A DNA stretch of 38,878 nucleotides from a virus: positions 1-38,878 of IMG/VR virus record IMGVR_UViG_3300025151_000109; one strand, written 5' to 3'. Of this stretch, positions 1 through 37,124 are shown in pieces. The notes beneath the pieces are model-generated. The model saw only the letters and a list, made by a program, of their open reading frames with translations. It was not told the DNA's origin and did no database searches. Within the stretch, counting starts at the first letter, position 1. Every line of letters starts with the position of its first letter. The position numbers and the translations under genes were made by a program.

Positions 1-3000
1 AAAGTGTTGGTGTACACAGTGTCCACATAAGGTATGGTTTGAGTACCAGACGCATCTACCACTTTAGCGCCTGATCCATGGTCCTTAATTCCTGTTCCAA
101 GTGTGCCACGTTGTAATTGACCTAACGTGTTTCCTGACTTGGTAAAATATTCAATTCTTTCTTTATCAACGAATACCACTCCTGGTATTATTGTTGACAC
201 TGTTGATCCATCTAGGCCAACCACCGGTTGTGGATTAGCCAATGCCGAACCGTTTGCGACTTTGATTTCTGTGTCATCTGTCGCCAATGTCTCTACAAGT
301 TCTGTTGTGTGTGCCTTGCTTATTCTCTTATAGAATGTTCTGTTCATCATGTCTTTGAAAATTCTATAACCAACAGCATCGGCAATAGTTGGAAGAGCAA
401 AGTATAGAATGTCTAATCTATCTGCCTGTGTCATTGTTCTTCCAATCACAGTGATTGTATTTCCTGATAAAGTGAAATCATGATTTTGTACCAGACTTTG
501 TCCATTCAGCCAAACATACATGTATGTTGAATTTGATGGAGTAAAGTAAGTTTTATACACACCATCTGATCTTCCTTCTAGTACTTCTCTTCTCAGGTTC
601 ATACCAATTGCATTATTGAACGTTGTCACTGCCATCTTATCGTTGATATTAAGAGTGTATCCATCTGATGCGATCTGTGATGTGTTAAGCACCAACCTGT
701 TACTTTCATCAATGCTATAATGATGATCGACGAGAGTGGTTATACTGATCATTTGATCTGCTGTTGGTACCTTACCTGATACGAAATTTATATTTTGATT
801 GACGAGATCGACCGTGTAATCTGTTGTCAATGTTTTTATAGATCCATTTACATGAACTTCAACTTGATCTGCTGATGTAATTGTTTTGGCCGGATCCACC
901 GTTGAGTCATCTAATAATCCGTTGGTCACTCCATAAGTGTATGTGCTTCCGTCACCATTGTAGTAAGTGGTGTCTGGCGCTCTCAACATTTTGCCATTTA
1001 CTTCCACCAATGTCAGTCCTGTAAACGGTCGAATTGCTCCTGGTGGGTAAGTCAGCACATGAGTAGTTGAACCATCATAGGTTATCTCCTCATTCCTCAT
1101 CCTCATATGGCTTCTTCCTGTGAATGTGTCTGTTCCCCTCATGAATCCTGCTACCTGTATGAATGCTCCTGATGAAGGTGCCGAGTTGAAAGTCAAAACC
1201 AAAGTGTTTCCAATTTTAGTTGTTGAAAGATCTCCAAACTCAGGTGTAGTGGTTGTTGTTGTAAAAGCAGTTGTAGGTACACCGTCTATGGTGACGTACA
1301 ACTCTGCTAGAGTTGAATCTAAATTGAAATCTTCTCTTGACGAAGAAGTAAACTGTGTTGTGGAACCATCTCCAGAAAACTGATCTAAAACTGCAAAATC
1401 TCTTCCTGATATTGCAAAAGTTTTTGTGGCAATCACACTGAGTGGATCTGGTGCAGTGGTAAATGTTATTGTTTTTGCACCAACATCAACTGTGTAATCG
1501 GTAGTTAATTTTTTCACCACACCATCAACCGACACTGTAATCGAACCAATTGTCCCAGGATGGTCACCTATGCCGAAAGTTGTTGTGGTTCCATCTCCTC
1601 TGTAAATTCTATCTGAAATGTAAGGTGCGCCTGAAGTAGGAGTGGTGTAAACTTTGATATCCAATGTGTCGAATATCTGTCCTGGAACAACTTCTTCTGG
1701 TGCATAACTTGTTGTAGAAGATATAAATTCGTCACCATCGACATTAATGTCGCTTGGTGCTGAACCAAGTGCTGAGCCGTAAAGTCCATCTTTTGTGAAT
1801 AATCCACCTTTTACAATTGAATCTAGTGTTCTGTCATCTGTTGGTGTCAACACTCCATCGTCATCTGCCGGAATGAACTCTACTAAGGCATTTGCATTTT
1901 GGCTTTCACTCAATACAAAAGTGGTTGTGCTTCCATCTCCTGTGAACACATCAGAAAGTTTTCTACGTGTACTATCATTCTCTGAAACGTACACATGATA
2001 TACCTCACCCGAAGCAGGTGCAGTGTCGAAAGTGTAGGATTTGGTTGTACCGTCAGCCAGGAATGGTACTGTTCTTGACAGTCCATAGTTATCCCATGGA
2101 TAATCATACCATGCGGAGTTATCCCATCCTTGACTTTGATTAAACAATAATCCTGTTACCATTGTACCACCATAGTCAACACCCGACATAACCTGTGAAA
2201 GTTCGTTGCCTGGCATTCCCGAAGTTGGTGTATAGAAACCTAATATTCTGTCAGCGGCTGTAAGTCCTGACTCATCACCATAGTATTTGTACATACTGTT
2301 AATGCCGTCATCGAAATCCGTAGTTGATGTGAATTCATTTGTAACTTTGTATAGTTGATTCTCGTATCTCAATAATGTGCCGTATTTGTATGTTGTATTA
2401 GCCGCCCAGTGTACCACAGTAGATGAACTAGATATCCTGTCAAATTTTATCGTTGTATCAAAATCTCTTACCAAATCATTGTTTAGGTTCACATACGCCT
2501 TGGCAACGTCTGTTGGTGTTGAACCATCTGCAAGTCCGCCTGTGATTGTTATGGTAGGAGTTGTGGAATATCCAAAGCCAACACCAGTGACAGTTATGCC
2601 TGTAACTTTGCCACCGTCGATTGTTGCGGTTGCGGTTGCTGATACGCTGTCATCGCCTGTTATCGTTACTGTGGGTACCCTGACATAGCCTGAACCACCA
2701 TGATATACAGTTATTGATTTCGCATGTTTCTTGTGATAGTCGTACCATAGTTGCCATGGATACTGTGTAAGTTTATCAGTGTCAGTTTGAACATTCAATC
2801 TTCTAATCTTGCTAACGGAAGCGTCGTAGAAAGGTGGATTGTCAAAGTCTGTGATCACACCATCGTGTTGTTCAGGTGCATTGTATCCTAGTTTGTATTC
2901 ACGTAGTTTAGTATGGAACGGTTTGACTTCATTTATGTAGTCTTCGATCCAACTGTCAGTGCCTGTGGTATATGTTTTCCTTTGGCTGAAAGTCCTAACT

Positions 3001-6000
3001 TTGTTGACGGCTGTGATGAAACTTGTTTTGAACATCCAATCAACATACGATTGTTCAGATAACACTCTTCGTAATCCTGTAAAGAACAATGTGTTGTATT
3101 CCACAGCGAGATCATTTATGAATAAGTCATCTCTCAATGCTGTCAATATTTTTCTTGTTTCTTCAACCGGTTCTTGGTCAAAAGTGTTGTCATCGAAATT
3201 ATCTCCACCTGCAAATCCTGTTCCGTCTTGCGTGTAGTCATAGAGTTTGGTTGACAATCTGATTGTACCGTTTTCAGTACCAACATTGGTCCATCCTGTT
3301 GCAGTCTTCATAAACAGTTTCCAACCACCCGTGTCTGCGTTTGTTACTTTCACGTGTTTGCCAATGGCCATATCTAATGTGTCTAACTCGTATTGGAAAG
3401 TAACCTGTTTGTCAATAGGTGTATTTTCATCATGTATCATTTCATGCACGTCAGGATCAGTGCCATACCAGTCAGTGTAACTCCAGTATCGTGATGTGTT
3501 GTAAGTTTGGATTCTAGTTCTGTTCCACGAAGTGCCATCCCATTGGTATATAGACCAATAGTTGTTTGCAGTTTCGTCCGCTTTTACCAGATAATTCACA
3601 GTGCCTGATATGTCGGCAGTGTTGATGTAACTTAGATCTGCGTATGTGTCTACTGTCGCATCGAACTCACCACTTGCTGTTGTCGGTTCAGGTTCTTTTG
3701 AATCTAGGTTCCCTAATTTAATCAATCCAGACAATTGGTTTTTCTTGAGCACTGTATTTGCATAATCTATCAATTCTTTGAGAGCGGTGTATCTGTCAAG
3801 ATACCAACTTTGCCTTGGTCTAATTCTGTTTCCATATCTTTGATTCAAAGGTAAATCGATATCAGGAACGGCATCGCCGGCTGTATTTTTTCCTACTAGA
3901 GAATCCCACCAACCTTGTTCTATCTGAGTGCTTGGTCTAAAGTCCGGATCTCCTTCACGTACAAGTTTCCACACACTGTGGCCCTGCCCATCAAAATTAT
4001 TTGTTCTTACATCAACATTTAACACAATAGAATCATTTATTAGATCATTGACACCATATATGTAAAACTTATTGGTATCTGTTATTGCAAAATGCTTGAT
4101 ATCCACCGCTTTAGGATCTTTTATTGCATTAGAAACAAAAGCAGATGTATTCTTTCTTTGAACCACAGTATTCCGAGGTATTGATGATCTGTTTTTTACC
4201 CAGTAATAGAAGTAACTTACAAACGTATCAATCTTGGAATTGTAAATTTGTGTTTGCGTGAAATCTGTATTAGCAATACCTGTGACTTCATTGGCAAGTC
4301 CTTGTTGTGTACCTGATAGATCATTCCATTCGTCTGGTGTTAAAGTTGATTCTGTCCACTCATATATGTCAATGCTGGAACCTGGAAAAATCTTACCCCA
4401 GTTGTTGTATTTGTATTCTTGATCGTCCTGTTCATACCATATCCATTTGACCGTAGACAGGTCCCACCAAACTTCTCCAATGTGATTTTCTGCCCATGGT
4501 GTTTTTGTGTTAGCATTATTGCCTGTGTTGTACACAGCCGGATCCCATGGTGACTTGATGTTTATTTCTCTATCCGCGACTCCAAGGATTCTCCCTTTGA
4601 CTGGATCATAAAGATCATAGTAATCTCTTATTTGTTTAGTGCTGTTGTTGAAATCAAAAACCTGTCCAAGTTTTTCAATATCTATTAATGCAGTTTCTGT
4701 TGTGATGTTCTTCCACGCATATTCATTTTCAACTGTACAATCATACCCATACACTGTTCCATCGTTGGTCAAGTTTGGATTGCCTTCGTCAAATGGTGCA
4801 CCAACAAACACGTTATTATCGATTATGCACACACCTTTTCCAAAGTCATCGAAAGATGAAACTTCGTCTGATATCAACTTGTCATCTAAAACAAATTTAG
4901 TGTTGTACACTGTTGCTGTGTAGGCCGCCCCCGATCCGGCATTGGTGTCTACAATTCTTGTATCTTGTAGGTCGAATGTAGTTTCACCTGAGTCGAATTT
5001 CATTTCTCTGGAGTTTGAAGATTTCTCTGCACCAATTATAAGTCTTGTTCCCGCTTGGTTTATCGAAAGTGCTGAACCAAATTTTCCTTCTGATACTTCA
5101 TCTGGTTCATTAATCGTTTGATCCAAAGTGTAAGTGTTTGTAGAACCGTCCCTGTTCCATTTGTAGATGTAAACCGCACCCCTATCAGGTGAATCTGTTA
5201 AATCCAACCCAGGTGCACCAATTACAAGCGTTGTTCCATCTTTGCTCATTGCTATGGAATCACCAAATTTTGTATTCAAAGTAGATCCATCTAATGGCAC
5301 ACCTGTAAGTGTTTGTGCTAGTGCAAAAGAGTTCTGTGTGCTACCATCGTCGCTTTGCGATGTTCTTATGAATATTTCTACCTTACCTGCCTGTCCTGGA
5401 GCCAATGAACTCACAGCAAGTATGTCCGCATTATCGTTTGCTTCTAATCTATGACCGAACCTGTGACCTTCGCCTGCAGATGGAGCCTCTAACGTGTAGT
5501 CTAAAGTCCATGTGTCGTATGTACTTCCGTCAGCACCAATTCCCCATGTGTAAACATAAACTCTTCCATTATCGCCTGCGTGTCCCGGAGCGGAAACAAA
5601 CAAGTATTTTGTTGCCGTGTCTCTTTTTGAAAGCACTCCAGGTTCAGATATCTTGTGTGCCCATCCAAAATTTAGATTCTCATTAGATGATGACCCGTCT
5701 GTTGGTGGATTGACTGTTCCTAGTAAGCCATATTTGAAAGTTGCTGGATCCCAAACAAAAGTTTTAACCAGTCCAGAATCAATCTGTCTTGTGCTTCCAT
5801 CAGAATCTACGGTATTTGTATAAGGTGCACCCGCCACAACAAAGTTCTCATCAGTACTGATCGATAACGATTCTCCAAGCCTGCTGGTGTTGTCGTCGTT
5901 GTCGGTCATTGTCACTGTGGACTGCACCGAATATGTCGTGCCTGCTGAATGACTTGATCTAAACAGGAAGTGTAGTTCTCCCTGGCCTTTTCCCGGCGCA

Positions 6001-9000
6001 GATATTACTGCTGACCTACCATCATTTCTTGCAACGATCTTGTGTCCAAACTCTTGATTTGACGTTGCCGAATCTGGTGTCAGTATACGTAACTGTGTAT
6101 AGGGATCTTGTTTTTCGTATACACGCCATAAGCCTGAACTGTCAGCATCGGTGTATGCCTTATCGCCCTGCACTGCTAGTGAATCATTTTTATCTCTGAA
6201 TACACTGTAATTTAATCTATCATTTACATTATCCATCGAAGACATCCTTACAGAAATAAATTTGTAGATGTTTCCGTAACTGTCTGCTGTGGAACCGTCT
6301 ACCAACGTTGGTATAAACGATATGTTATCATCATATTCTATCTCAACTGTCTTGTGGTCAGGTGTGCTTTGTACTTTGAAAACTCTATTCAAAGATGTTG
6401 CTTCACTGTTTGAGATTGCAAAATAATCTGCTTCTTGGCTTGGTGTGCCTGCGGACAATCCATGAGAGTCTGTGAAGGCAATTCTCAACTGTGTGCCACC
6501 TTCTGACGTGCTTAGGTTAGCAATCTTAAAGTTTGCATTCGTTAGTCTGAATACGTCCCAATCTTTGTTCTCTTTGTTTGCAACCCATATCAAATCATTG
6601 TTTGTGATTGCATTCACATCCAAATTCAATAGGTCTTCGATGTTAAATGCTGTGTGCTGAACCTGTTGCAACTGCGGATAGCCTGCAGTCTTGAATATCT
6701 GTGCAGTATCTTTATCTACACTTTCTTTGGTATAATCCAATCTTGAAAACGTCGAACTGGCTGTGTATTCCACAGGTTTACTGTAAAGGTCATCTTTCGT
6801 TACTGCAAGTGACCTCCCGTACTGTTTGGTCTCAGATCCATTGTCCAACAACTCTATGCTTTGTGGATTTCCGTTCACCGCTGAATCTTGTAATGTAATC
6901 TGTATGCTTTCCTTACTGTCAACATTTCCAAACTCTCCGGTACGAACCATCCATTCAGGATAAAGGTCTAATGTAATGTCGGAATCTTCATATTTTGCCT
7001 TTAATAATTTGTCAATTGCATTCAATGTACCTTTTTGTCTGATGTACCCTTGATAGAACTTGTACTGTGATACATCATTCACAAACAAGTTTTCTAGATA
7101 ATCTCTAGATTGATATCCTGTAAGTCTCTGTGCCAATTGCTCTTGTGATTCATCAAAATTGTTAGATTCTAGATCATAAAAAGTATTGAACTGAGAAATC
7201 TTGTAGTCAAAGTTTGGAATCAATTGAGGCGCTGGTTTTTGACTCTTCAATGTCCAGTAGTCTGAAACAAATTCATTTCCTGAATTGTGATTGACATTAG
7301 CCACATAAAACTTGGCTTGATATTCTATCGAGTCCCCAATTCTGTAGTCCGTGCCTGTGGTCCAACGTGTTACCTGTGCCGCATCAAAAATAAATCCTGG
7401 TGCATAGTAATCACCATTCCAGTTGCCCGTTTTCCAACCCACTAATTTTAATCTGGCCTGTCTGAATCCTGTGTATGCCTCGTAGATTATGTCTGAAAAC
7501 ACAGTGCTGTTATCAAATAATAAAATATGTTCTTTCTGGACTGTGTTCAAAGCAACATTGTATAGTCCGACATCTTCGGATTTAATCGATAGATCAAAAG
7601 TTTTTCCAATACGCTTGGTACTGAACTCCCGTATATCTATCTTTCTACCTCCGGCATCTAGCAATGAATAATCGCCTGCAAGGTTTCTTAATTTACCCAC
7701 AACAGTGTTGCTGGTGTCTAATTCAAATCCGTCCGCGGCAGGTGATACTGTGATTGCAGATCCGGGTGCCCATGTTTGTGTGGTCCAAAATAAAAATTCA
7801 CGTACAGCGTTGCCCCAATTCAACACCTCTTTTATCTCGTTTGAATACTTGTTGAATTTGAATCCTTGTGTTTCTAGATAGTTGCCATAACCGAAAAGGA
7901 AATCTGCAACATCTTGTATTGTGTCAAACACGTAGCCATATGGTATAGTCTGCACAGTTTCCTGGAAGTTCGAATATTTTTTGACAACAGTGGAACCTCC
8001 CGCCTGGACTTTTCCATGGTTTGTCCCTTTTACGGGATAATTGAATCTAAAGTAAGGCTTTGTTGTTGAATAACCTAAAATTTTGTAACCACCAACGTCA
8101 GTCACTGTTGATCCGTCCGTTGATGTTGTTGTGTCTGTGTTCTTTTCTATCAAAACACCTGAATATTCAAAACTTTCGACTGGGTTTGAGGTTCTAAATA
8201 GAATTTTGTAGTTCTCGTCTGGTATAAATTTAGAGCCAGATGTTGAACCTGGTGATACAGAGTCTGTAAGAACTTTTAAATTTTCCTTGTCCGTGAATCC
8301 ACCTAACTTGTACGCTAGTTGCACATTCAATTTTTTCATCTTATCATAGTAGAAAGTTTTAGGATCTAAATTTTTTCCTATCAAATGATTAACAACAAAA
8401 ACCTGATACCCTGCTGTTTGGTATCTAGTTGTGATGCCGGTATTATTGTCAGTCGATGTTTCTAGGTAATACTTGGCAGTGTTCAAAACAGTCCTAATTC
8501 CAGTATCAGAATAAATCTCATTGCCTGACACGTTTGTTGAGATCCTTGATGTGTCAAAGAATTTAGAGAAAAATTTTGCTGGTTTTGTTATTGCCAAAGT
8601 CTTGACAACAGTGAAAGGATAAGAACTAGATCTTCTCCATGCTGTCTCCGCCGGCGCCTGATCACCAAACTTCCAGGTTCGTGCTCGTCCGGGAACATCA
8701 AGATTGCTGATCAAACCTATTGCTAATGGGTCTAACAAGTTTCCTGATGCATCTACAGGAATGTAAGTTCTAATGCTTGGTTTGCCATACCTGCCTGGTT
8801 CCGTCGCTATTGCATTCCATAGTATGTCATTACCCGCTGTGTACGGAGCAACACCGTAAGTGTCGTCCCAAGTGCTTGGTTTTTCAGAGTGTCCCAACAT
8901 CTCCCATGGTCTGGTGTGTGGTGAATCCGTGTCATAAAAATATTTGTAGATACCTCTCCAGTAGCCTGGCAGTTTATTTTGGTTGAGCCTGTCTGTGCTG

Positions 9001-12000
9001 TTTGCATAATTGTATGTAAACGGTGATCCTTCTGAAAATACTGTGTTGTTGATATATTGCACATTGTTACGTCCTGCCCAGTTGTAAAAATCTGGACCCA
9101 TTATATCATCTATTTCACTGAAACTGTACTCAGTTGAGGTGAATGCACTAGGCATCACTTCCGACACATCCAATAATGTGTTATCATATTCTACTTTACA
9201 GTTGTTGTAAATTCTTTTCTCTAACTCTAAAATCAAATCATCTCGTTCATCGCCGTAGGCTTTTATTATAGAACCGTCGTGTCTTCTGATAGCATTTGTA
9301 GTTGTGATGTATGTGTTATCGCTGAAAAGTTCTGGTTTGAACTTAGGATACATTCCAAGTTTAGTTGGACTAGATGGCAAATAACTTCCAGTGGTGTCAC
9401 TGTAATCTTTGATTTTTAATATATCTCCAACGGCAACAGTTGTTGAAAGTGTGATACTGTCATCTTCAGTGCTGAATGTATATTCTGATCCATGAACCAG
9501 TTGCACATCATTTTTGTAAACGTAAACTGCTCTGTTGCTCAATGTTGTTAAGTTGTGTTGTGAATCTAGGGCAAATTCTTTTTGAGATGTTCCCTGCACT
9601 GTGATTGTTCTTGTTGAAACATTTTCACCCCAACCAATCATATCGTCGTAATAGAAAGGAAAACTGCTGTTCTTGCCTAGGTTAATCGCTGATATTATTT
9701 CGTCAACTCTGTCAGCAGGCACGCCTTCGTACGCTGAACCTGTTGCATGTGTCAAGAAAGAATTGTACCATTTTTCGTACTCTCGGTTAACATAATCAAT
9801 GGCCGTAATTGCATTTGCCTCTTGGTCCGTCAAATTGAATATCGCAGGTACCAAGGACGCTTCGTGTTGTACGATGGTACCACCGTTGAGTCTGCTGTCA
9901 GGCTTGTCCCTGAGGTTTGTTACTCCGGGAATTGCACCAGTGACATCTGTATTCTTTTCTAAAATATCCGTTGTGTGTTTCAAAATCTGACCATAAGTGA
10001 AAGTGCCAACTGTTGAATTCAGTGCATTGATAGATAAATTTTCAGGCACCTCGTAAATTCCTTTGCCGGCAACCTTGTTAGCACTGCTGTAACCAGCAAT
10101 CCTAATTTGATCATTCACTTTCAATTCATCCACAAATCTCACATATTTGTTCGTGGAACCATCTACTAGTGTGTAATCTGTTGTAAGTGATTTTTGAACA
10201 CCGTTTACACTTACGGAAATTTCGAGATCGGTAAGTGATGCCGAATTTTCATAGAAGTCTATTGGAAAAAGTCTCTTCTCGGTAGCATCAACAATAGCCG
10301 TCCTTATGACACGCTGTTTAGATTCACTTGTACGTTTTATCCATGCACTTTTATTATTGTGAGATTGCAAACTTGTTGTGTAGTGTAGATGACCTTCTGC
10401 TTGATCCTTGGTTTTTGTCGTACCATCTTGCTGATATGTAAATGTTCCTGCTGTGTGATCCGACTCGAATACAATATCTCCAACATTGTTAATTGTGTTG
10501 TATTTTACTTTGATGCCAAGCACAGTGTCCGTTGTCGCTGTATCTGAAGTCGCGTATGCAAAAATCTTTGCACCTGTGAACGTTGAGTTTGGATAGGTTG
10601 TTGCATCATCAAACAGCACGTGGTTGTTGTCGTAAAGATTGAACAAAGGCTGTTGGTTTAATTTTGTTTTCTGTTGTGTTGCCACCCATAGTGTACTTGC
10701 TTCATCGTAGTAATACGAATTTCCTTTATTTTCGGTGCCTTGTTTCACAAAAATGTTTTCTTTATCTTGCGCCGTACCATTTACCTCTTCTGTCAGTGTC
10801 AATGACAACACTGATGAATCACCAGCATCCACAAAGTTTGCAACGTATATTTTATTTCTTACCAATGGATCTGTGTCAGCAGAGAAAACCACACGCATAC
10901 CGTCCGTGATTGCCACGCCGTCGATTATGTAACCAAATGTTCCAGAAACGTTACTCATCGCATCTTTCTGTGTTGTGTCAAACAAGTCCACAGGTGTCTT
11001 TGCAACTGTTCCTGAATTGTATAACGCAAGTCCTGAATCGAATTCTATAATCGGTCTTTTGGCACGAGCAGTTTCGTCTAATGCTGTTGTTGTTCCGTTG
11101 ATAGCATTGGCTCTTTCTATCACAGACCTATGGAACCATCTGTTGTATCTAGTCCATGCATTCAAATCCCTAGAATCTCTCTTGATTGTGATGTAGTCCT
11201 TGTCCACCGGAACACCATCGTCTGCATAACTTTCGGGTGTTGCCAGGTTTGACACATCAGTAATTGTTATTGCATCTCCTACACCTTCAACATAATATTC
11301 TTTTCCTTGATAAGCACTGGCCACTTTGCTTGAAGTGAATTTGATCTTCATGCCGTTTGACAGTTGTAGGTTACGCAATTTGTAATTTTTCGTTCCTACT
11401 ATATCATCCTCTACATCAATATTTGTAGTACTTGCAACAGTGTGAATGTTTATCAGTCCGTACATGTTCTCATGATTTCCACACTGATAATACAACTTGT
11501 TTGGTGCATTGTTTGGAATAACAAACGTGACTGTTCCTTCACTGGCTCCATTATTTGTAACACCTGATGTGTACAAAGTCGAAGACGAACCATCCGATGC
11601 CACTTGATCCTTTCTTGGTTCTGTCATTATGTAGAACGGATGTCCTTTTGCGTTCACTTTGAATTTGTATGTGTTGCCCCTGTAAAGTATAAGTTCTGAA
11701 TTCCTCTCATTGCCTAGATGTGGGAAATGCCAGGCTTTGCCAGAACTTCCGTCGTCCGGCAATGCTTTCACATCGTATTCTGCTTCCGCACCTGTGCCGG
11801 CAGAGTCTATTTCTATGCAGTCAGGTCCGTTACTCAACCAATAGTATTCCCTGTAATTGATCAATTTGTCTAAATCTACTGCTGGGTTCCAACTGTAAAC
11901 ATTGCCTTTGTTGAGCCTGTCGTGGTTGTTTACCTTTCCTCCTAGGTACTTGATCTGATTAAGATAATCATCGTATGTGCCTGTGAACTTTACTTGGTCT

Positions 12001-12317
12001 TCTGGGTTGACTGAAGTTGTGTCTTTGTCTGTATAAGTTACAGCAGGTTCTAGTTGATAGGTATATCTATCAGCACTTGTGGCAGTCAGATATCTGTCAG
12101 TCACTTTTCTTGTGTATGCGTCTTGTCTGCCTACAAATCCGTCCAATCTCTCCAACGAACCTTTTTGCACCAACGGATCCAAAGTGCTTGACAGGAATCT
12201 TTGGTTTGAATCAGTTCTGTAGAATGAGGGTAGATGTTGAACAGTTCTTCTGTATTCGTTGTTGCCCTGTTTTACAACTTCTTCGTTTGTTGTTGAGTTA
12301 GTAGGTGTGTCAGCCAT
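1..12317 (-). CDS. Giant baseplate/tail structural protein, 3' end outside window
   Basis: An ATG at 12317 opens a frame with no stop down to base 1, at least 4105 codons. The start overlaps the gp6 stop as TAATG, so translation is probably coupled to gp6. It sits where T4 has gene 7, just after gp6, and marine T4-like phages often carry very long structural ORFs here; a wedge or tail-fibre-like role is inferred. The visible protein begins MADTPTNSTTNEE. Further in are a PWEMLGHSEKP segment near residue 1135, a run of FG-GAP-like blades at about 2030-2510, two GSGYxxxPTVTI-type repeats near 3206-3265, and a series of GDGST(T) beta modules at about 3420-3800. The last visible part (about 3990-4105) holds a segment reading IEYFTKSGNTLGQLQRGTLG. 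No catalytic motif was seen. Whether the start of the protein retains gp7-like sequence cannot be judged by eye. Confidence 0.88.
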   Translation of the reverse strand, partial: MADTPTNSTTNEEVVKQGNNEYRRTVQHLPSFYRTDSNQRFLSSTLDPLVQKGSLERLDGFVGRQDAYTRKVTDRYLTATSADRYTYQLEPAVTYTDKDTTSVNPEDQVKFTGTYDDYLNQIKYLGGKVNNHDRLNKGNVYSWNPAVDLDKLINYREYYWLSNGPDCIEIDSAGTGAEAEYDVKALPDDGSSGKAWHFPHLGNERNSELILYRGNTYKFKVNAKGHPFYIMTEPRKDQVASDGSSSTLYTSGVTNNGASEGTVTFVIPNNAPNKLYYQCGNHENMYGLINIHTVASTTNIDVEDDIVGTKNYKLRNLQLSNGMKIKFTSSKVASAYQGKEYYVEGVGDAITITDVSNLATPESYADDGVPVDKDYITIKRDSRDLNAWTRYNRWFHRSVIERANAINGTTTALDETARAKRPIIEFDSGLALYNSGTVAKTPVDLFDTTQKDAMSNVSGTFGYIIDGVAITDGMRVVFSADTDPLVRNKIYVANFVDAGDSSVLSLTLTEEVNGTAQDKENIFVKQGTENKGNSYYYDEASTLWVATQQKTKLNQQPLFNLYDNNHVLFDDATTYPNSTFTGAKIFAYATSDTATTDTVLGIKVKYNTINNVGDIVFESDHTAGTFTYQQDGTTKTKDQAEGHLHYTTSLQSHNNKSAWIKRTSESKQRVIRTAIVDATEKRLFPIDFYENSASLTDLEISVSVNGVQKSLTTDYTLVDGSTNKYVRFVDELKVNDQIRIAGYSSANKVAGKGIYEVPENLSINALNSTVGTFTYGQILKHTTDILEKNTDVTGAIPGVTNLRDKPDSRLNGGTIVQHEASLVPAIFNLTDQEANAITAIDYVNREYEKWYNSFLTHATGSAYEGVPADRVDEIISAINLGKNSSFPFYYDDMIGWGENVSTRTITVQGTSQKEFALDSQHNLTTLSNRAVYVYKNDVQLVHGSEYTFSTEDDSITLSTTVAVGDILKIKDYSDTTGSYLPSSPTKLGMYPKFKPELFSDNTYITTTNAIRRHDGSIIKAYGDERDDLILELEKRIYNNCKVEYDNTLLDVSEVMPSAFTSTEYSFSEIDDIMGPDFYNWAGRNNVQYINNTVFSEGSPFTYNYANSTDRLNQNKLPGYWRGIYKYFYDTDSPHTRPWEMLGHSEKPSTWDDTYGVAPYTAGNDILWNAIATEPGRYGKPSIRTYIPVDASGNLLDPLAIGLISNLDVPGRARTWKFGDQAPAETAWRRSSSYPFTVVKTLAITKPAKFFSKFFDTSRISTNVSGNEIYSDTGIRTVLNTAKYYLETSTDNNTGITTRYQTAGYQVFVVNHLIGKNLDPKTFYYDKMKKLNVQLAYKLGGFTDKENLKVLTDSVSPGSTSGSKFIPDENYKILFRTSNPVESFEYSGVLIEKNTDTTTSTDGSTVTDVGGYKILGYSTTKPYFRFNYPVKGTNHGKVQAGGSTVVKKYSNFQETVQTIPYGYVFDTIQDVADFLFGYGNYLETQGFKFNKYSNEIKEVLNWGNAVREFLFWTTQTWAPGSAITVSPAADGFELDTSNTVVGKLRNLAGDYSLLDAGGRKIDIREFSTKRIGKTFDLSIKSEDVGLYNVALNTVQKEHILLFDNSTVFSDIIYEAYTGFRQARLKLVGWKTGNWNGDYYAPGFIFDAAQVTRWTTGTDYRIGDSIEYQAKFYVANVNHNSGNEFVSDYWTLKSQKPAPQLIPNFDYKISQFNTFYDLESNNFDESQEQLAQRLTGYQSRDYLENLFVNDVSQYKFYQGYIRQKGTLNAIDKLLKAKYEDSDITLDLYPEWMVRTGEFGNVDSKESIQITLQDSAVNGNPQSIELLDNGSETKQYGRSLAVTKDDLYSKPVEYTASSTFSRLDYTKESVDKDTAQIFKTAGYPQLQQVQHTAFNIEDLLNLDVNAITNNDLIWVANKENKDWDVFRLTNANFKIANLSTSEGGTQLRIAFTDSHGLSAGTPSQEADYFAISNSEATSLNRVFKVQSTPDHKTVEIEYDDNISFIPTLVDGSTADSYGNIYKFISVRMSSMDNVNDRLNYSVFRDKNDSLAVQGDKAYTDADSSGLWRVYEKQDPYTQLRILTPDSATSNQEFGHKIVARNDGRSAVISAPGKGQGELHFLFRSSHSAGTTYSVQSTVTMTDNDDNTSRLGESLSISTDENFVVAGAPYTNTVDSDGSTRQIDSGLVKTFVWDPATFKYGLLGTVNPPTDGSSSNENLNFGWAHKISEPGVLSKRDTATKYLFVSAPGHAGDNGRVYVYTWGIGADGSTYDTWTLDYTLEAPSAGEGHRFGHRLEANDNADILAVSSLAPGQAGKVEIFIRTSQSDDGSTQNSFALAQTLTGVPLDGSTLNTKFGDSIAMSKDGTTLVIGAPGLDLTDSPDRGAVYIYKWNRDGSTNTYTLDQTINEPDEVSEGKFGSALSINQAGTRLIIGAEKSSNSREMKFDSGETTFDLQDTRIVDTNAGSGAAYTATVYNTKFVLDDKLISDEVSSFDDFGKGVCIIDNNVFVGAPFDEGNPNLTNDGTVYGYDCTVENEYAWKNITTETALIDIEKLGQVFDFNNSTKQIRDYYDLYDPVKGRILGVADREINIKSPWDPAVYNTGNNANTKTPWAENHIGEVWWDLSTVKWIWYEQDDQEYKYNNWGKIFPGSSIDIYEWTESTLTPDEWNDLSGTQQGLANEVTGIANTDFTQTQIYNSKIDTFVSYFYYWVKNRSSIPRNTVVQRKNTSAFVSNAIKDPKAVDIKHFAITDTNKFYIYGVNDLINDSIVLNVDVRTNNFDGQGHSVWKLVREGDPDFRPSTQIEQGWWDSLVGKNTAGDAVPDIDLPLNQRYGNRIRPRQSWYLDRYTALKELIDYANTVLKKNQLSGLIKLGNLDSKEPEPTTASGEFDATVDTYADLSYINTADISGTVNYLVKADETANNYWSIYQWDGTSWNRTRIQTYNTSRYWSYTDWYGTDPDVHEMIHDENTPIDKQVTFQYELDTLDMAIGKHVKVTNADTGGWKLFMKTATGWTNVGTENGTIRLSTKLYDYTQDGTGFAGGDNFDDNTFDQEPVEETRKILTALRDDLFINDLAVEYNTLFFTGLRRVLSEQSYVDWMFKTSFITAVNKVRTFSQRKTYTTGTDSWIEDYINEVKPFHTKLREYKLGYNAPEQHDGVITDFDNPPFYDASVSKIRRLNVQTDTDKLTQYPWQLWYDYHKKHAKSITVYHGGSGYVRVPTVTITGDDSVSATATATIDGGKVTGITVTGVGFGYSTTPTITITGGLADGSTPTDVAKAYVNLNNDLVRDFDTTIKFDRISSSSTVVHWAANTTYKYGTLLRYENQLYKVTNEFTSTTDFDDGINSMYKYYGDESGLTAADRILGFYTPTSGMPGNELSQVMSGVDYGGTMVTGLLFNQSQGWDNSAWYDYPWDNYGLSRTVPFLADGTTKSYTFDTAPASGEVYHVYVSENDSTRRKLSDVFTGDGSTTTFVLSESQNANALVEFIPADDDGVLTPTDDRTLDSIVKGGLFTKDGLYGSALGSAPSDINVDGDEFISSTTSYAPEEVVPGQIFDTLDIKVYTTPTSGAPYISDRIYRGDGTTTTFGIGDHPGTIGSITVSVDGVVKKLTTDYTVDVGAKTITFTTAPDPLSVIATKTFAISGRDFAVLDQFSGDGSTTQFTSSSREDFNLDSTLAELYVTIDGVPTTAFTTTTTTPEFGDLSTTKIGNTLVLTFNSAPSSGAFIQVAGFMRGTDTFTGRSHMRMRNEEITYDGSTTHVLTYPPGAIRPFTGLTLVEVNGKMLRAPDTTYYNGDGSTYTYGVTNGLLDDSTVDPAKTITSADQVEVHVNGSIKTLTTDYTVDLVNQNINFVSGKVPTADQMISITTLVDHHYSIDESNRLVLNTSQIASDGYTLNINDKMAVTTFNNAIGMNLRREVLEGRSDGVYKTYFTPSNSTYMYVWLNGQSLVQNHDFTLSGNTITVIGRTMTQADRLDILYFALPTIADAVGYRIFKDMMNRTFYKRISKAHTTELVETLATDDTEIKVANGSALANPQPVVGLDGSTVSTIIPGVVFVDKERIEYFTKSGNTLGQLQRGTLGTGIKDHGSGAKVVDASGTQTIPYVDTVYTNT
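900..2110 (-). repeat. GDGST(T)-type beta modules in the giant ORF
   Basis: The minus-strand translation repeats a short turn motif: NGDGSTYTY near 945, SGDGSTTQF near 1365, RGDGTTTTF near 1590, TGDGSTTTF near 1935, and the looser LADGTTKSY near 2055. Each is followed by a block of beta-rich sequence of about 60-140 residues, often with a VxVDGV or VxVNG segment. This looks like diverged tandem beta domains of the kind found in long phage tail and fibre proteins. The repeats are protein-level and too diverged to appear as simple DNA repeats. Confidence 0.6.
4700..6240 (-). other. FG-GAP-like beta-propeller region inside the giant ORF
   Basis: Reading the minus strand, about seven to eight units of roughly 55-75 residues each start with an FG-type pair and end with a hydrophobic strand plus GAP/SAP and an aromatic VYxY-type strand. 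Examples are EFGHKIVARNDGRSAVISAP, RLGESLSISTDENFVVAGAP, KFGDSIAMSKDGTTLVIGAP with GAVYIYKW, KFGSALSINQAGTRLIIGAE and DFGKGVCIIDNNVFVGAP. This matches the FG-GAP repeat of integrin-alpha-type propellers. The blade count and function (carbohydrate or protein binding in the baseplate or fibres) are inference. Confidence 0.7.
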
Positions 12318-27855: not shown

Positions 27856-27887
27856 AACCCTCGGCTTTTACTAGTCGGGGGTTTTTT
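27856..27887 (+). terminator. Rho-independent terminator after the histone-like gene
   Basis: AACCCTCGGCT pairs with AGTCGGGGGTT across the six-base loop TTTACT, giving an 11-bp stem with two G-T pairs, followed at once by TTTT. On the minus strand the stem is not followed by a T-run, so it acts on the plus strand only. Its downstream edge touches the stop codon of the radical SAM gene. Confidence 0.88.
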
Positions 27888-28758
27888 ATTTGCACGTTCC
27901 ACACATTGTAAGACAAGTGGGTATGTAATTTTTTTGTTTGATTGTGCTCAGTATATCTACTGAAGTGTGTTCTGTCTTTTCCAAATAACAACAAGGTGTA
28001 AGTCTACCCAAGGCACTTAGAAAAAGACTTTTCAATGCTAAATGCATACAGTCCTTTGTCTGCACTGTGTTGTTTTCAACACCGAGAGTGTTCTTGTGCA
28101 GTATACCATCTTTCCTTTCCCATTGTTTGCGATGTCCTGACCATGGTTCTATTTTTACAGGCTCTCCTGTTCTATAGTCAAATGCCTTTTTATGATATCT
28201 TGCATTTTTAATAAATTCGAATCTTCGAAATCCAAGTTTGGCGGACATCCTCATACAGTCCTTAATTTGGTGTTCGTTGTGTTTGAACGGAATAAACTGC
28301 CAAACTGCTTTTCCGCCTGCTTGTATAAATGAGGTTGCGTTACCGATAACCTTTTTCCAATTGGTACCTTGTCTGTAAATGCTGTGAGTGTCTTCTAATC
28401 CATCCAAAGCAAACCAAACTTCCAAATCGGGTAGTCTATCCGGAAGTTCTTTCCACCATTTTTTTGTCCGTAAACTGCCGTTGGTCTGTAATTGGACCGA
28501 TACTCCGGCCTTTGCCAATACATCTATATGCTTGTCAATTAGTTTACCTGCACAAGGATCACCATAAACTCCGCATAGTTGCACAGTCTCCAAAGACGGC
28601 AACTTTGCTATTGTGTCGGACAACTTATCAACCGGCAGGTCCGTGACCTTCACACCGCTGAGTCCATAGCCGAAATTGTTACGTCCACATCCACTGCACC
28701 ATGCGTTGCATCTAGTGGATGGTTCAACGTGTAACCATTTAATATCTTGTAGATGCAT
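27886..28758 (-). CDS. Radical SAM enzyme with cysteine-rich C-terminus
   Basis: A 290-residue radical SAM protein. The [4Fe-4S] motif is CNAWCSGC (C17, C21, C24; CxxxCxxC), preceded by HVEPSTR. Next come GVYGDP in the position of the GGE-like SAM motif, and LQTNGS and WFALDGL as further barrel strands. The C-terminal third has six more cysteines (DCMHLA, TPCCYLE and the final CLTMCGTCK), suggesting a twitch/SPASM-type auxiliary cluster. Such proteins often modify peptides or proteins, but no precursor peptide can be assigned here. It follows the GIY-YIG stop with no gap (TAA then ATG), so they form one minus-strand unit. Confidence 0.82.
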   Translation of the reverse strand: MHLQDIKWLHVEPSTRCNAWCSGCGRNNFGYGLSGVKVTDLPVDKLSDTIAKLPSLETVQLCGVYGDPCAGKLIDKHIDVLAKAGVSVQLQTNGSLRTKKWWKELPDRLPDLEVWFALDGLEDTHSIYRQGTNWKKVIGNATSFIQAGGKAVWQFIPFKHNEHQIKDCMRMSAKLGFRRFEFIKNARYHKKAFDYRTGEPVKIEPWSGHRKQWERKDGILHKNTLGVENNTVQTKDCMHLALKSLFLSALGRLTPCCYLEKTEHTSVDILSTIKQKNYIPTCLTMCGTCK

Positions 28759-29169
28759 TTATTTCAATATGCCTTTACCGTGTACCCTTACACGTATATG
28801 CCCATTGTAGTAATCGTTTGTTTCTAGCACCTTACGTGCAAACTGCTCACGTGCCTCAACGTAAGATAGTTCTGCTTTGGACTTGCAGAAAAAAAGTATT
28901 TCTCTCTTGAACTTGTCCTTGCCTAGTTTATTAACATCCATAGTGAGATCATCACTTGACCCGTAATAGTCTTGCCAATCAGAATTAACCTTGTATCTAC
29001 GCTTGTTCTTTCTGCCTTTCAGTGGTGGTCTGGATCTTTTAAATCTAGCAAGTTTCTTACCTACGTACATCCTACCGTTGGTTGTATTTGTAATAAGGTA
29101 CACAAATCCCACAACGTTTTCTGGCATATTGGTAATTTCATTTCCTTGATAAGTCCAATGCATAGCCAT
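28759..29169 (-). CDS. GIY-YIG family endonuclease
   Basis: From the ATG at 29169 a 136-residue protein (MAMHWTYQGNEITN). The catalytic core has the GIY-YIG pair as FVYLITNTTNGRMYVGKK, then a basic stretch (PPLKGRKNKRRYK), DWQDYYGS, and a later glutamate in YVEAREQFARKVL. These are features of small phage GIY-YIG nucleases of the Seg/homing-like type. The open frame extends up to a GTG at 29229, but the added residues look unlike the family. ATG 29163 is an equally possible start, and neither has a clear Shine-Dalgarno sequence. It lies next to the non-coding hairpin region, a placement seen for mobile nucleases, and is transcribed with the radical SAM gene. Confidence 0.8.
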   Translation of the reverse strand: MAMHWTYQGNEITNMPENVVGFVYLITNTTNGRMYVGKKLARFKRSRPPLKGRKNKRRYKVNSDWQDYYGSSDDLTMDVNKLGKDKFKREILFFCKSKAELSYVEAREQFARKVLETNDYYNGHIRVRVHGKGILK

Positions 29170-29277
29170 ATTTAAAGCCAAAAAGATTGACCTACAAAGA
29201 AAACTCATATAAACATATGCGATAGGCACATCTCAATTTCAATCAGGCAAACATAGCATCGCAACCAGTGAGCAAGG

Positions 29278-31203: not shown

Positions 31204-31425
31204 CTAGAAGAAAGGCTGACCACTTTTTTTGGTAGTTTCCAAGTTATCTTTTACCAGTTGTGCAATGATTTCACGTTCTGTTGGGCTCAAAGCGGAGGCT
31301 TCTGAGTAGGTCATTCCGCCACGCATGTACCAACATATCTTCATGAGTTCATGTTTGTACTCTTTTTGGGAGTTTTCCATGTCCTTCAAAGTTTTTATAA
31401 TTTCAGAATTCGTTTGTGAAAGCAA
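31204..31425 (-). CDS. Downstream ORF of the gp26-like gene, probably expressed by -1 frameshift
   Basis: A 73-codon ORF (from TTG at 31425) with the compact helical sequence CWYMRGGMTYSEASALSPTE followed by REIIAQLVKDNLETTKKSG and a QPFF end. Its frame is exactly -1 to the upstream gene, and there is no stop between the slippery site at 31437-31443 and this ORF, so a slip adds 77 residues (FRIT plus this ORF) to give a fusion of 359. The TTG has no Shine-Dalgarno sequence and lies only a few bases past the upstream stop. T4 places gp51, a hub-assembly factor, after gp26; the fusion would match the lambda GT arrangement. Independent translation is the less likely alternative. Confidence 0.7.
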   Translation of the reverse strand: MLSQTNSEIIKTLKDMENSQKEYKHELMKICWYMRGGMTYSEASALSPTEREIIAQLVKDNLETTKKSGQPFF

Positions 31426-31427
31426 GG

Positions 31428-32282
31428 TTATACGAAAAAATTTGCGTTGTCAAAACTCACTGGTATCTCGTAATTTGTAGGTGCACCTTTTTTGATCTGT
31501 TCTTCGGTGGCCTTCAACTTCAATGGTTTGACAGCACCCTGCGATCTCAACTCAATCATCTTTGTTTCGATCTCTTTGATGATTTTTGCATTCGCTTTGT
31601 CGAAGAACTCTTTGATTTGTGCGGGATCAGTCACCTCAGTGCCATCCGGCATCACGATGCTTTGCATATTTTTCAACAACACATTTGAATTCAGTTCTGT
31701 TAATTTTTTAAATGCCTCATTGAACCTAGTGGTCTTCTCTTCGTCTGCCATCTGTGAGTCCGACACTGCGGTATACATCTTCTGCTGTTGGAAAGTCTGC
31801 AAAGATGTCTGTGTCATGTCTTTGTATGTCAATGGTCTTACTTTAACTCTCAGTCCGTCGTCCAGTGTGACCTCTGTCAAGATCTTCTCGGCTTTGATGT
31901 CTTCAAGCAGTGCTGGAAGATTTACCGAATGATTCACTGTTTCATTTGCCCCAGGAACAACGAAACTCATGTCCATTGTCTCACCGTATGTGGCTATCCT
32001 GATTGCTATCAATATAGTGTCCAAATCATAACTTTGGATCTGCCATGCGTCCTTGATATCTGGACAACAACTTTGTATAACGTCAACAACTCCCTGGCCG
32101 TTCATGAGTGCGTCTGGTGTTTTGAACCTGATTTCATCCTTGGCCGTCATTGGCATCACTCCCAATTCGCCTGTCTGTGAGGGTGTTACCACGTGTGGTG
32201 GATAGTTGGTGCCCGAAGGCAGTGATACATACAGGGCCGGTTGCCTGAAATACTTGTTAAGTGGATTGCTATTTTCTGTCAT
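31428..32282 (-). CDS. 26: Baseplate hub / tail assembly protein gp26-like
   Basis: A 284-residue protein of the gp26-like type found in marine T4-like phages: LNKYFRQPALYVSLPSGTNY, GELGVMPMTAKDEIRFKTPD, ALMNGQGVVDVIQSCCPDI and DLDTILIAIRIATYG. In T4, gp26 (208 residues) and gp51 take part in hub assembly around the tape measure gp29. The gene sits directly divergent from the tape-measure gene, and its product may be a tape-measure chaperone like lambda gpG. It ends in a frameshift site. A TATAAATA box on the minus strand at 32326-32333 lies 44 bases before the start codon. Confidence 0.75.
   Translation of the reverse strand: MTENSNPLNKYFRQPALYVSLPSGTNYPPHVVTPSQTGELGVMPMTAKDEIRFKTPDALMNGQGVVDVIQSCCPDIKDAWQIQSYDLDTILIAIRIATYGETMDMSFVVPGANETVNHSVNLPALLEDIKAEKILTEVTLDDGLRVKVRPLTYKDMTQTSLQTFQQQKMYTAVSDSQMADEEKTTRFNEAFKKLTELNSNVLLKNMQSIVMPDGTEVTDPAQIKEFFDKANAKIIKEIETKMIELRSQGAVKPLKLKATEEQIKKGAPTNYEIPVSFDNANFFV
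31437..31443 (-). promoter_or_regulatory. Candidate -1 ribosomal frameshift site
   Basis: The minus-strand message reads GCA AAT TTT TTC GTA TAA in the gp26-like frame. A AAT TTT is an in-frame X XXY YYZ heptamer, three codons before the stop. Slipping back one base opens the frame of the 73-codon ORF. A run of six T favours slippage. I did not identify a definite downstream pseudoknot. Confidence 0.7.
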
Positions 32283-32363: not shown

Positions 32364-34469
32364 ATGGCAATAGATGATAAAGAAATAGAAAATCTGGAAA
32401 AACGGATTAGAGGCCTATCTTCGGAGATTACAAAAGAAGCAAGGGCCAAAAAAGCGTCCAGAGAACAAGAAGCGAGAATAGCCAGGGACAAAATAAGAGA
32501 AGCACGACAAGAGATTAATAATCTTAAAAAGAGCAACCCACTCAGAAAAAAATTAACAGACGAACTAGAAGATCAAATTGACAATTACGAGGACCTTAAG
32601 AAATCACAGGAAAAACTTGATGAGGTCACTAAAAAGGTAGGACAGTCATTTATTGGTTTAGGTAAGGCGGCATTCGAAGGATCAGGATCAATCAGTGCTT
32701 TCACAGACAATGTGAAAGGTCTAGGAATATTAGGCAATAGGCTAGATGTCAACATAGAAACATTCAGACAACTGTCACAGTCAGGTGCCAACTTTGGTAA
32801 GAGCATAGTGGATCTAAGAATGGCGGCCCACGACGCCGCGTTGCCTTTGGATGATTTCGCAAAACTTGTTGCAGAAAATTCTCAGAATTTGGCGGCGATA
32901 GCAGGGTCATCTTCACAGGGTGCAAAATTCATAGCACAGTTGGGTCAGCAGACCAGAGACTTGGGCGTCAAGCAATTGGCTCCACTGGGATTCACAGTTG
33001 ATGAAATAAATGAAACACTATTGTTAAACCTAGACTCACAGAGAAGAACCGGAGTGCTAGATCGTTTGACCAGTGATCAACAAAGAGACAGTGCAATATC
33101 TTTCGCACTTGAACTTGATAGATTAGCAAAACTGACAGGACAGCAAAGAGATGAATTGAGAGCCGCTATCGAAAATCAAAAGAGCAATGAAAGATTCCAA
33201 GCGGCATTGCAAGGACAAACAGAAGAGACTAGAAAAAGATTGCAAGGCTTTGCGGCGACAGTAGAGGGCATCTCTCCGGAATTAGCAACAGGCTTTCAGG
33301 ACTTGATAGCCAATGCAGGTGTTCCGGTAACTGATGCCGCACTAGAAATTGCACAGAACGTGCCGCAGGCAGGTGCAGTAATCAAACAGTTGATTGCAGG
33401 CACTCTATCAAGTGAACAAGCACTTGTGAAATTCAGAGATCTGTCAGCAAACAGTTTGGAAAGATTTAACAAAGTTGCTGTTACTGGACAGGTAGACTTC
33501 TTAAGACTTACAGGTGGTTTCATAGAACTAGGCAGACGAGTAAACGACCTTGGAGAGGTTGAGGCCGAACAAGAAAAACAAGCATCGAAACTAGTAGGAA
33601 GTCTAACAACATTCGAACAGGCAACTAAAGTGTTAGCAAGTCAATTCCAATCGATAGAGACAGGACTGTTACAGGCGTTTGGTCCGGCCTTGGGCACATT
33701 CTTTGATGGTGTGCAGGGAGCATTTGGCAAGGGCGGAAGCATCGCAACAGTGTTGGCAAAATCTCCAGGTGTGACGGCAGGTTTATTGTTGGCGGGTCTG
33801 GGTGGCAAATATCTACTGGACTTCGGACAACAGGTGGCGGCGATCACAGCAGGTACGTTTGCAGGATTCAAGATGGCTAACCCAACCGGTGGAGGTGCGG
33901 GCGGTTTCTTCGGCAAGGGTGGTGCAGGTAGAACAGGATTAGGAATAGCAGGCAGAGGTGTTGGGATACTAGGAGGTGTGGGATTGGCCGCAGGCGGAGC
34001 CGCACAGGCAGGCACCGCAGAAACGGCCGGTGGCAAAGCAATGGGAGTGCTATCAAGCATGGCCGGTGGAGCAATGATCGGATCTATGATCCCAGGAGTT
34101 GGTACACTTATAGGTGGCGGACTAGGATTGGGTGCAGGTCTATTGGGACTTGCAATGAACAAGAACGGAAGACAATTTGGTGGAGGCATGGATGCTGGTA
34201 AAACTTACCTCACAGGTGAGGCAGGACCAGAAATGATAACGGCAGGAACCAAATCAACTGTCACAGCCAACAACGATCTTAAAACCATATTTGATACACA
34301 GGCGCTGGAAAGTAAAATGAACACAATGGTAACTGCCTTAAACAACACCAATCAAAGCCTGGCAAGTGTGGCAAACGGCGTAAATACGCTTGTTGCAGTG
34401 GAATCTAGGGCATTGAAAGCCGTTGAAACAACAGCACGTAAAGACCGTAATCAAGTTGGCATAGTTTAG
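32364..34469 (+). CDS. Tail tape measure protein (gp29-like)
   Basis: A 701-residue protein. Residues 1-110 are charged coiled coil (ENLEKRIRGLSSEITKEARA, KKLTDELEDQIDNYEDLKKS). A long helical body follows. Residues about 465-600 are Gly/Ala-rich and hydrophobic, with membrane-helix-like stretches typical of tape measures. Near residue 613 comes the frequent tape-measure ending GKTYLTGEAGPEMITAG, then a helical tail. T4 gp29 has 590 residues. It sets tail length and is ejected with the DNA. The call rests on this architecture and on the neighbouring gp26-like chaperone pair. No clear Shine-Dalgarno sequence precedes the ATG (CATATGGC context); a late promoter lies 63 bases upstream. Confidence 0.78.
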   Translation: MAIDDKEIENLEKRIRGLSSEITKEARAKKASREQEARIARDKIREARQEINNLKKSNPLRKKLTDELEDQIDNYEDLKKSQEKLDEVTKKVGQSFIGLGKAAFEGSGSISAFTDNVKGLGILGNRLDVNIETFRQLSQSGANFGKSIVDLRMAAHDAALPLDDFAKLVAENSQNLAAIAGSSSQGAKFIAQLGQQTRDLGVKQLAPLGFTVDEINETLLLNLDSQRRTGVLDRLTSDQQRDSAISFALELDRLAKLTGQQRDELRAAIENQKSNERFQAALQGQTEETRKRLQGFAATVEGISPELATGFQDLIANAGVPVTDAALEIAQNVPQAGAVIKQLIAGTLSSEQALVKFRDLSANSLERFNKVAVTGQVDFLRLTGGFIELGRRVNDLGEVEAEQEKQASKLVGSLTTFEQATKVLASQFQSIETGLLQAFGPALGTFFDGVQGAFGKGGSIATVLAKSPGVTAGLLLAGLGGKYLLDFGQQVAAITAGTFAGFKMANPTGGGAGGFFGKGGAGRTGLGIAGRGVGILGGVGLAAGGAAQAGTAETAGGKAMGVLSSMAGGAMIGSMIPGVGTLIGGGLGLGAGLLGLAMNKNGRQFGGGMDAGKTYLTGEAGPEMITAGTKSTVTANNDLKTIFDTQALESKMNTMVTALNNTNQSLASVANGVNTLVAVESRALKAVETTARKDRNQVGIV

Positions 34470-36264: not shown

Positions 36265-36507
36265 ATGAAACTAATGGAATTCTTTACATACACAGCAGAC
36301 GGGTTCGAGCAGGACAAAACCTATGAGCCTGAGCACGATATATCTGTTTTGGATTCCGAAGACACAAGAAAAACTAGACTATCTTTGAAAGATATCAACT
36401 CAATGAGACTTGCATCAGAGGCCCACGATGCTCAGCAAAAGGAAGAAGCAGTTTTTGTCCAAAAAATGTACGGACAACCTGCCACAGACGATAACTTAGA
36501 GTTATAA
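36265..36507 (+). CDS. Small protein in the gp67 position
   Basis: An 80-residue acidic protein (MKLMEFFTYTADGFEQDKTY, ending GQPATDDNLEL) with a helical middle (LSLKDINSMRLASEAHDAQQ). It lies just after the portal gene, where T4 has gene 67, a prohead core protein that is also 80 residues long. Sequence similarity to T4 gp67 is not evident by eye, so the role is inferred from position and size. Its stop overlaps the next start as TAATG. Confidence 0.7.
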   Translation: MKLMEFFTYTADGFEQDKTYEPEHDISVLDSEDTRKTRLSLKDINSMRLASEAHDAQQKEEAVFVQKMYGQPATDDNLEL

Positions 36508-37124
36508 TGTCATCAATAGCGTTCGTATTAGGTAACGGTGAATCACGTAAGGGCATCGATATCGATGATCTTAAGAAGTTAGGCAAAGTTTATGCCTGTA
36601 ACGGTGTCTACAGAACACATAGACCAGACTTTCTAATAGCGGTTGACCCAAAGATGTGTTTCGAAATAGCAGAAACTGACTACGCACAACATAATAAAGT
36701 GTGGTCAAACTTCAATGCCCAGTACAACAAAAATCAAAAAATAATGGATCACTTCAACTGGTTCCGACCAAGCCTAGGGTGGTCAAGCGGCCCAACCGCA
36801 CTTAGAATGGCCTGTGAACATGGTTTCAAGGAGATCTACATACTTGGATTCGACTATCGTGGGCACGGTGACAACAACAGGTTCAAGTTCAACAACATTT
36901 TCAAGGACACAAGGAACTACAAAAAGTCAAAGGACGAAGCAACGTTCTATGGCAACTGGATGAATCAGACAAAACGTTGCGTACAGGATTTTAAAGACGT
37001 CAAATTCCATAGAGTTATACCTGAAGGATGGTTCAAACCCAAAGACCTTGCGTGGGCAGGACAGATAGATCATCCAACTATCGAAGAATTCGTCACAAAA
37101 TTTGGTTTGCAATTAAAAAAGTAA
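36507..37124 (+). CDS. CstII/DUF115-like glycosyltransferase-fold protein
   Basis: A 205-residue protein. The start, IAFVLGNGESRKGIDIDDLK, and VYACNGVYRTHRPDFLIAVD match the nucleotide-sugar binding pattern GNGPSL...D...F.CN of CstII-type (GT42) sialyltransferases and the related DUF115 group. Later, SSGPTALRMACEHGFKEIYI followed by LGFDYRG parallels the TSG..A...A...GYKEIYL.G.D segment. It is shorter than CstII (about 290 residues), and donor and acceptor are unknown. Its place between the gp67-position gene and the prohead-core gene suggests late expression and perhaps modification of a virion protein or surface glycan; this is inference. Confidence 0.6.
   Translation: MSSIAFVLGNGESRKGIDIDDLKKLGKVYACNGVYRTHRPDFLIAVDPKMCFEIAETDYAQHNKVWSNFNAQYNKNQKIMDHFNWFRPSLGWSSGPTALRMACEHGFKEIYILGFDYRGHGDNNRFKFNNIFKDTRNYKKSKDEATFYGNWMNQTKRCVQDFKDVKFHRVIPEGWFKPKDLAWAGQIDHPTIEEFVTKFGLQLKK

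Follow-up and report, generated by a model that had tools for sequence, protein, structure and literature searches.

A conserved slip site and a selected −1 reading frame argue for frameshift expression of tail-assembly chaperones in an uncultured T4-like phage

Results

Organization of the locus

The window, i.e. the whole stretch of DNA analysed here (38,878 nt, IMG/VR record IMGVR_UViG_3300025151_000109), is a fragment of a marine T4-like phage genome with a gp20-like portal, a late sigma factor and an SbcC/gp46-like protein. Its nearest cultured phages are in the Phosso/Atu_ph07/PA5oct/121Q jumbo group. The locus under study lies on the minus strand and consists of a putative short tail-assembly-chaperone gene (TAC-N) followed by a small open frame (ORF2) in the −1 phase. 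The features are as follows.

31428..32282, minus strand: predicted short tail-assembly-chaperone gene (TAC-N; T4 gp26/gp51 family), 284 codons
31437..31443, minus strand: A_AAT_TTT heptamer, proposed as the slip site in a preliminary description of this DNA; overlaps T_TTT_TTC and is kept in part of the family only
31434..31440, minus strand: T_TTT_TTC slippery heptamer, shared by every close relative and the best candidate for the slip site
31428..31430, minus strand: zero-frame stop TAA, one codon past the slip site
31425..31423, minus strand: nominal TTG of ORF2, two bases past the TAA
31403..31421, minus strand: conserved stretch of the mRNA past the slip site, apparently unpaired, clade consensus TNTCACARWCGGANTCTGA
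31206..31204, minus strand: ORF2 stop TAG
31204..31440, minus strand: stretch of the −1 frame predicted to encode the extension at the C-terminus (TAC-C), FFRITLLSQ...GQPFF, 76 codons past the slip plus the stop

The upstream gene ends in GAC AAC GCA AAT TTT TTC GTA TAA, followed by CC and the TTG. The anatomy given in the preliminary description was thus reproduced: A AAT TTT stands in frame near the end of the gp26-like gene (31443..31437, before the TAA), only the two bases CC separate the TAA from the TTG, and the early ORF2 starts in the window have no SD-like sequence ahead of them. The −1 frame is open from just ahead of the slip site to 31204. As had been claimed, it runs from the heptamer through ORF2; the junction reads ...NFFRITLLSQ... 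and the translation continues ...FFRITLLSQTNSEIIKTLKDME...ETTKKSGQPFF, ending at 31206..31204. Upstream, a stop closes the −1 frame 19 nt before the TAA, so that a productive slip is confined to the short AAT TTT TTC stretch. In-frame X_XXY_YYZ heptamers are frequent in the window (48 in 8,371 codons). The heptamer alone is therefore weak evidence and the case rests on the relatives. In dinucleotide shuffles of the same stretch, an open frame of 76 codons has p ~0.005.

Assignment to the gp26/gp51 family

The upstream product matches PF12322 with 45.7 bits (cut-off 24.5) and phrog_150 with E=2e-17. A search of BFVD with its AlphaFold model (pLDDT 81) gave "Baseplate hub assembly protein, T4-like" at a TM score of 0.81; PDB sequence and fold searches found no related solved structure. 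On T4 proteins, the phrog_150 profile aligns to gp51 over positions 3-281 and to gp26 over positions 10-236. By this comparison T4 gp51 is recognizable as the complete long form and gp26 as the short form, encoded by separate divergent genes. Since gp51 spans the whole long form and gp26 the short one, the unshifted product of the window is gp26-like and the frameshift product would be gp51-like. The 73-codon ORF had been taken as the gp51 equivalent, which is not so. Two full-length copies were found only in T4 among the 16 T4-like records searched; a 138-kb and a 122-kb relative have one TAC-N copy each, compared with the two full-length homologues of T4.

Homology probably extends to the fusions of other T4-like phages. 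A fused profile of the window's group and the jumbo phages was compared with one of other T4-like phages, including the cyanophage, KVP40 and T4 long forms. Their alignment spans columns 32-351 and crosses FF-R (probability 99.1%, E 1.8e-18). TAC-C alone against the T4-like TAC-C was only suggestive (single-comparison E 0.002, probability 13%); the fused profile matched the single T4 gp51 sequence weakly.

Conservation of the slip site

We collected 57 viral contigs encoding a close or mid-distance homologue of the gene. Each contig that includes the junction has the slip site and keeps the −1 frame open over 224 nt (215 nt in contigs L047 and L049) unless it ends earlier. All close relatives carry A AAT TTT TTC base for base, with no stop in the −1 frame. 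Codons 281-283 (AAT TTT TTC) show zero synonymous variation among 32 distinct close relatives, compared with a mean synonymous entropy of 0.80 bit for two-fold codons overall. The context AAT TTT TTC GTA TAA is kept across the close relatives in a gene whose synonymous sites elsewhere are near saturation (pS 0.63-0.76). The strongest run of synonymous constraint in both frames is centred on the junction, and none of 2,000 permutations gave one as strong. It is this conservation in relatives that places the junction far above chance.

A wider scan of marine, freshwater and cyanophage sequences gave two sets with 146 distinct junctions. T_TTT_TTC is present in 75/75 window-related and 71/71 cyanophage-type junctions, one codon lies between the slip and the zero-frame stop in 144 of the 146, and the −1 frame is open in all whose sequence runs far enough. 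The slippery heptamer is kept both in the 32 close relatives and in 146/146 wider junctions, and stops between the heptamer and the second ORF, which would have spoken against a fusion, do not occur in the sequences that run far enough. Six of six jumbo phages have T_TTT_TTC in the same arrangement. The codon in front of TTT TTC is AGT in L049, PA5oct, XaC1 and P-SSM2, CAT in Phosso, Atu_ph07 and 121Q, CGT in RaK2, TCT in S-PM2, and GAT in PhiW-14 and KVP40. HTVC008M and Cr30 have T_TTT_TTT at the slip site, and the phage ViI gene ends in GAA ATT TTC ATT TAA with no canonical heptamer. Because distant phages keep T_TTT_TTC and vary the preceding codon, this slip site is most likely the ancestral one, with A_AAT_TTT an overlapping, lineage-specific addition. 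The A AAT TTT heptamer first proposed as the slip site is thus real and frozen in the close clade, but the heptamer common to distant relatives is the one three bases downstream. NFFR results from a slip on either heptamer, which leaves the two indistinguishable by junction peptide.

Coding selection and translation start in the downstream frame

The −1 frame evolves as a protein, with a median pN/pS of 0.165 at a pS of 0.63. Its W..MRG and TK residues are invariant in relatives, and the FFR residues, which lie upstream of the TTG, are conserved. TAC-C is predicted to be helical (model pLDDT 79). Among 37 distinct sequences, hardly any SD-like match precedes the early ORF2 starts, and the TTG two bases past the stop is present in 29 and absent in 8. 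In several close relatives TTG has become TTA with the leucine kept; in distant relatives lacking TTG the closest start often comes 12-18 codons into the frame. Loss of the TTG together with the missing SD sequence is the pattern predicted by in-frame read-through, not by initiation. A good ribosome binding site with an ATG would have indicated a separate second gene; the 37 sequences have no convincing SD sequence and no conserved start. Reduced synonymous variation was also seen in the last ORF2 codons (ETTKKSGQPFF; 31204..31240, minus strand), perhaps a signal for the next gene.

Stimulatory elements

A stimulator, either a 3' hairpin, a pseudoknot or an upstream SD-like element, is common in programmed −1 frameshifting and is not obligatory. 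In the close clade we found no 3' hairpin: single-sequence z-scores were −1.4 to +0.2 and RNAalifold predicted essentially nothing. A 5-bp candidate pairing, UNUCA/UGANA, was rejected: only one of its pairs is free to vary, 18/34 mismatch there, and the pairing hardly exceeds that in shuffles. Most close-clade and freshwater sequences lack an upstream SD-like element. The cyanophages have GGAGG or GAGG ~10 nt upstream of the heptamer in 57 of 62 sequences, and P-SSM2 and S-PM2 carry a strong hairpin from ~5 nt downstream of it (z ~−4), which a consensus structure also shows. In the cyanophage-type loci L190-L269, the SD-like GGAGG ~10 nt upstream and the hairpin ~5 nt downstream of T_TTT_TTC form a dnaX-like layout. 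The freshwater set has a hairpin at the position of the cyanophage one, with 82% of cells paired versus 29-53% when slid and with moderate covariation support; part of this pairing could reflect amino-acid constraint.

Synonymous change is suppressed in ORF2 codons 0-9 (34 distinct sequences). Of these, codons 0-2 are shared with the zero frame and its stop; codons 5-9, in which TCA and TCT are invariant, are not. The consensus of this region, TNTCACARWCGGANTCTGA, lies ~19-37 nt downstream of the heptamer's first T. No consensus structure was found for it in the close clade, and no pairing passed the controls. We tentatively suggest, as an idea more apt to fail than to hold, that in the marine clade this element and the double heptamer A AAT TTT TTC may stimulate the slip in place of the cyanophage hairpin and SD-like stimulators.

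Discussion

Proposed mechanism and alternative explanations

Slip-site conservation and coding selection in the −1 frame strongly support the proposal, already made in the preliminary description, of a programmed −1 frameshift that makes a tail-chaperone fusion. The comparative sequence data make it very probable that short and long tail-assembly chaperones are made from one gene in this way. Points that weigh against it are the failure to find a 3' hairpin or SD-like stimulator in this clade, the merely suggestive comparison of TAC-C alone and the weak tape-measure match of the neighboring gene. Most ribosomes would terminate at the TAA and yield TAC-N. In a minority, the tRNA-Phe in the P and A sites on TTT TTC would re-pair one base back (T_TTT_TTC to TTT TTT), and the slipped ribosome would read 76 codons in the −1 frame and produce TAC-NC, the long form. 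If lambda gpG/gpGT is a guide, many copies of TAC-N and few of TAC-NC may coat the tape-measure protein, and the C-terminal domain may recruit tail-tube subunits. The ribosomal slip, the ratio of short to long form and the chaperone role are all inferred from these comparisons.

The same protein could be made if RNA polymerase slipped on the T6 run and added an extra U to some transcripts, joining the two frames. The T6 run is retained in nearly all relatives, and one inserted U also yields NFFR. Six bases is, however, short for efficient bacterial transcriptional slippage. Both the length and the codon phase of the run are fixed as T_TTT_TTC, and related groups have ribosomal stimulators at the expected spacing (GGAGG ~10 nt upstream, a hairpin after a 5-nt spacer). 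Polymerase slippage is thus considered improbable. A slightly smaller chance is given to ORF2 being a separate small gene, started at the TTG by termination-reinitiation. The distance of two bases past the stop suits reinitiation, in the window as in 29/37 distinct sequences, but there is no SD sequence; several close relatives have TTA in place of the TTG, and distant ones lack it. A separate gene would also leave unexplained the frozen synonymous sites at AAT TTT TTC and the conserved FFR encoded in the −1 frame upstream of the TTG.

The downstream frame could finally be a decayed relic of a gp51 C-terminus with no present function. A short open frame may last a while by chance, and one such frame has the p ~0.005 given above. 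The selection pattern refutes this reading, which retains next to no probability: pN/pS is 0.165 at near-saturated pS, W..MRG and TK are invariant, and the frame is open in every relative. Programmed frameshifting by the ribosome remains the explanation we favor.

Relation to known systems

TAC genes were reportedly identified in T4-like phages by Vladimirov, Gautam and Davidson in 2022 (Virology 566:9), who are said to have found frameshifting kept in several T4-like groups and genes 26 and 51 used in T4. This work is cited by PRFect in connection with T4-like phages whose short and fused genes are separate (PMC10885494) and, in the paper on phage Adele, as the source for poly-T slip signals in T4-like TAC-N genes (PMC12846349). 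Going by these citations, −1 frameshift expression of TACs in T4-like phages is already reported and is not new here. Fusion expression had been presented as a possible novelty for a T4-like phage, which is not right given the earlier proposal (PMC10885494, PMC12846349). The frameshift in the window is, on the same accounts, a well-supported addition to known T4-like cases. Atkins et al. (2016) described G-T frameshifting as conserved in long-tailed phages "except T4" (PMC5009743).

As far as those citations describe them, the T4-like TACs of Vladimirov et al. share with the window the protein family (PF12322, phrog_150), the short and long forms and the poly-T −1 slip. The window's clade differs from them in being uncultured, marine or freshwater and jumbo-related, in its A AAT TTT TTC double heptamer, in having no detected SD-like or hairpin stimulator, and in a TAC-C of 76 codons compared with ~60. 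T4 has homologous short (gp26) and long (gp51) proteins from two separate, full-length, divergently oriented genes, whereas the window has one gene and a probable frameshift. In lambda, ribosomes slip by −1 shortly before the short-form gene ends, giving a minor, C-terminally extended form working with the tail-length protein (PMC5009743). The window resembles lambda gpG/gpGT and other long-tailed phages in the position of the slip and the C-terminal extension; its protein family and heptamer differ, and its putative tape-measure gene is divergent rather than downstream in an operon. The Pakpunavirus/Vandenendeviridae TAC (phage Adele, PMC12846349) has a conserved −1 frameshift with an invariant GTTTTT at the TAC-N end, but it belongs to another phage family and its heptamer is less extended.

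Expression by −1 frameshift thus appears to be the common state among the sampled marine, freshwater, cyano- and jumbo T4-like phages, and the two genes of T4 the exception. In annotations, ORF2 should appear as the C-terminal part of a fusion and not as a separate "hypothetical protein". The lineages share the slip site and appear to differ in stimulators, and so offer a natural series in which the causes of the slip can be studied.

Neighboring genes

The pair had been described as adjoining the tape-measure gene. A neighbor is indeed adjacent (32364-34469), but its identity is weak (26 bits to TMP_3, below the cut-off of 41) and it is divergent, unlike the lambda G-T-H operon. Its RaK2 counterpart is annotated as a tape-measure protein, and no T4 gp29 homologue was found in the relatives. 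The product of 32364-34469 is a possible tape-measure protein by these sequence comparisons. An uninterrupted frame (3..12317, minus strand), at least 4,105 codons long, runs off the window end; by comparison with the 15.6-kb gp7 gene of P-SSM2, its product may be a giant baseplate-wedge or fibre protein. A SegE-like GIY-YIG homing endonuclease (28759-29229, minus strand) adjoins a radical-SAM protein (27886-28758). The small protein encoded at 36507-37124 (plus strand) shows a weak match to CST-I-type sialyltransferases.
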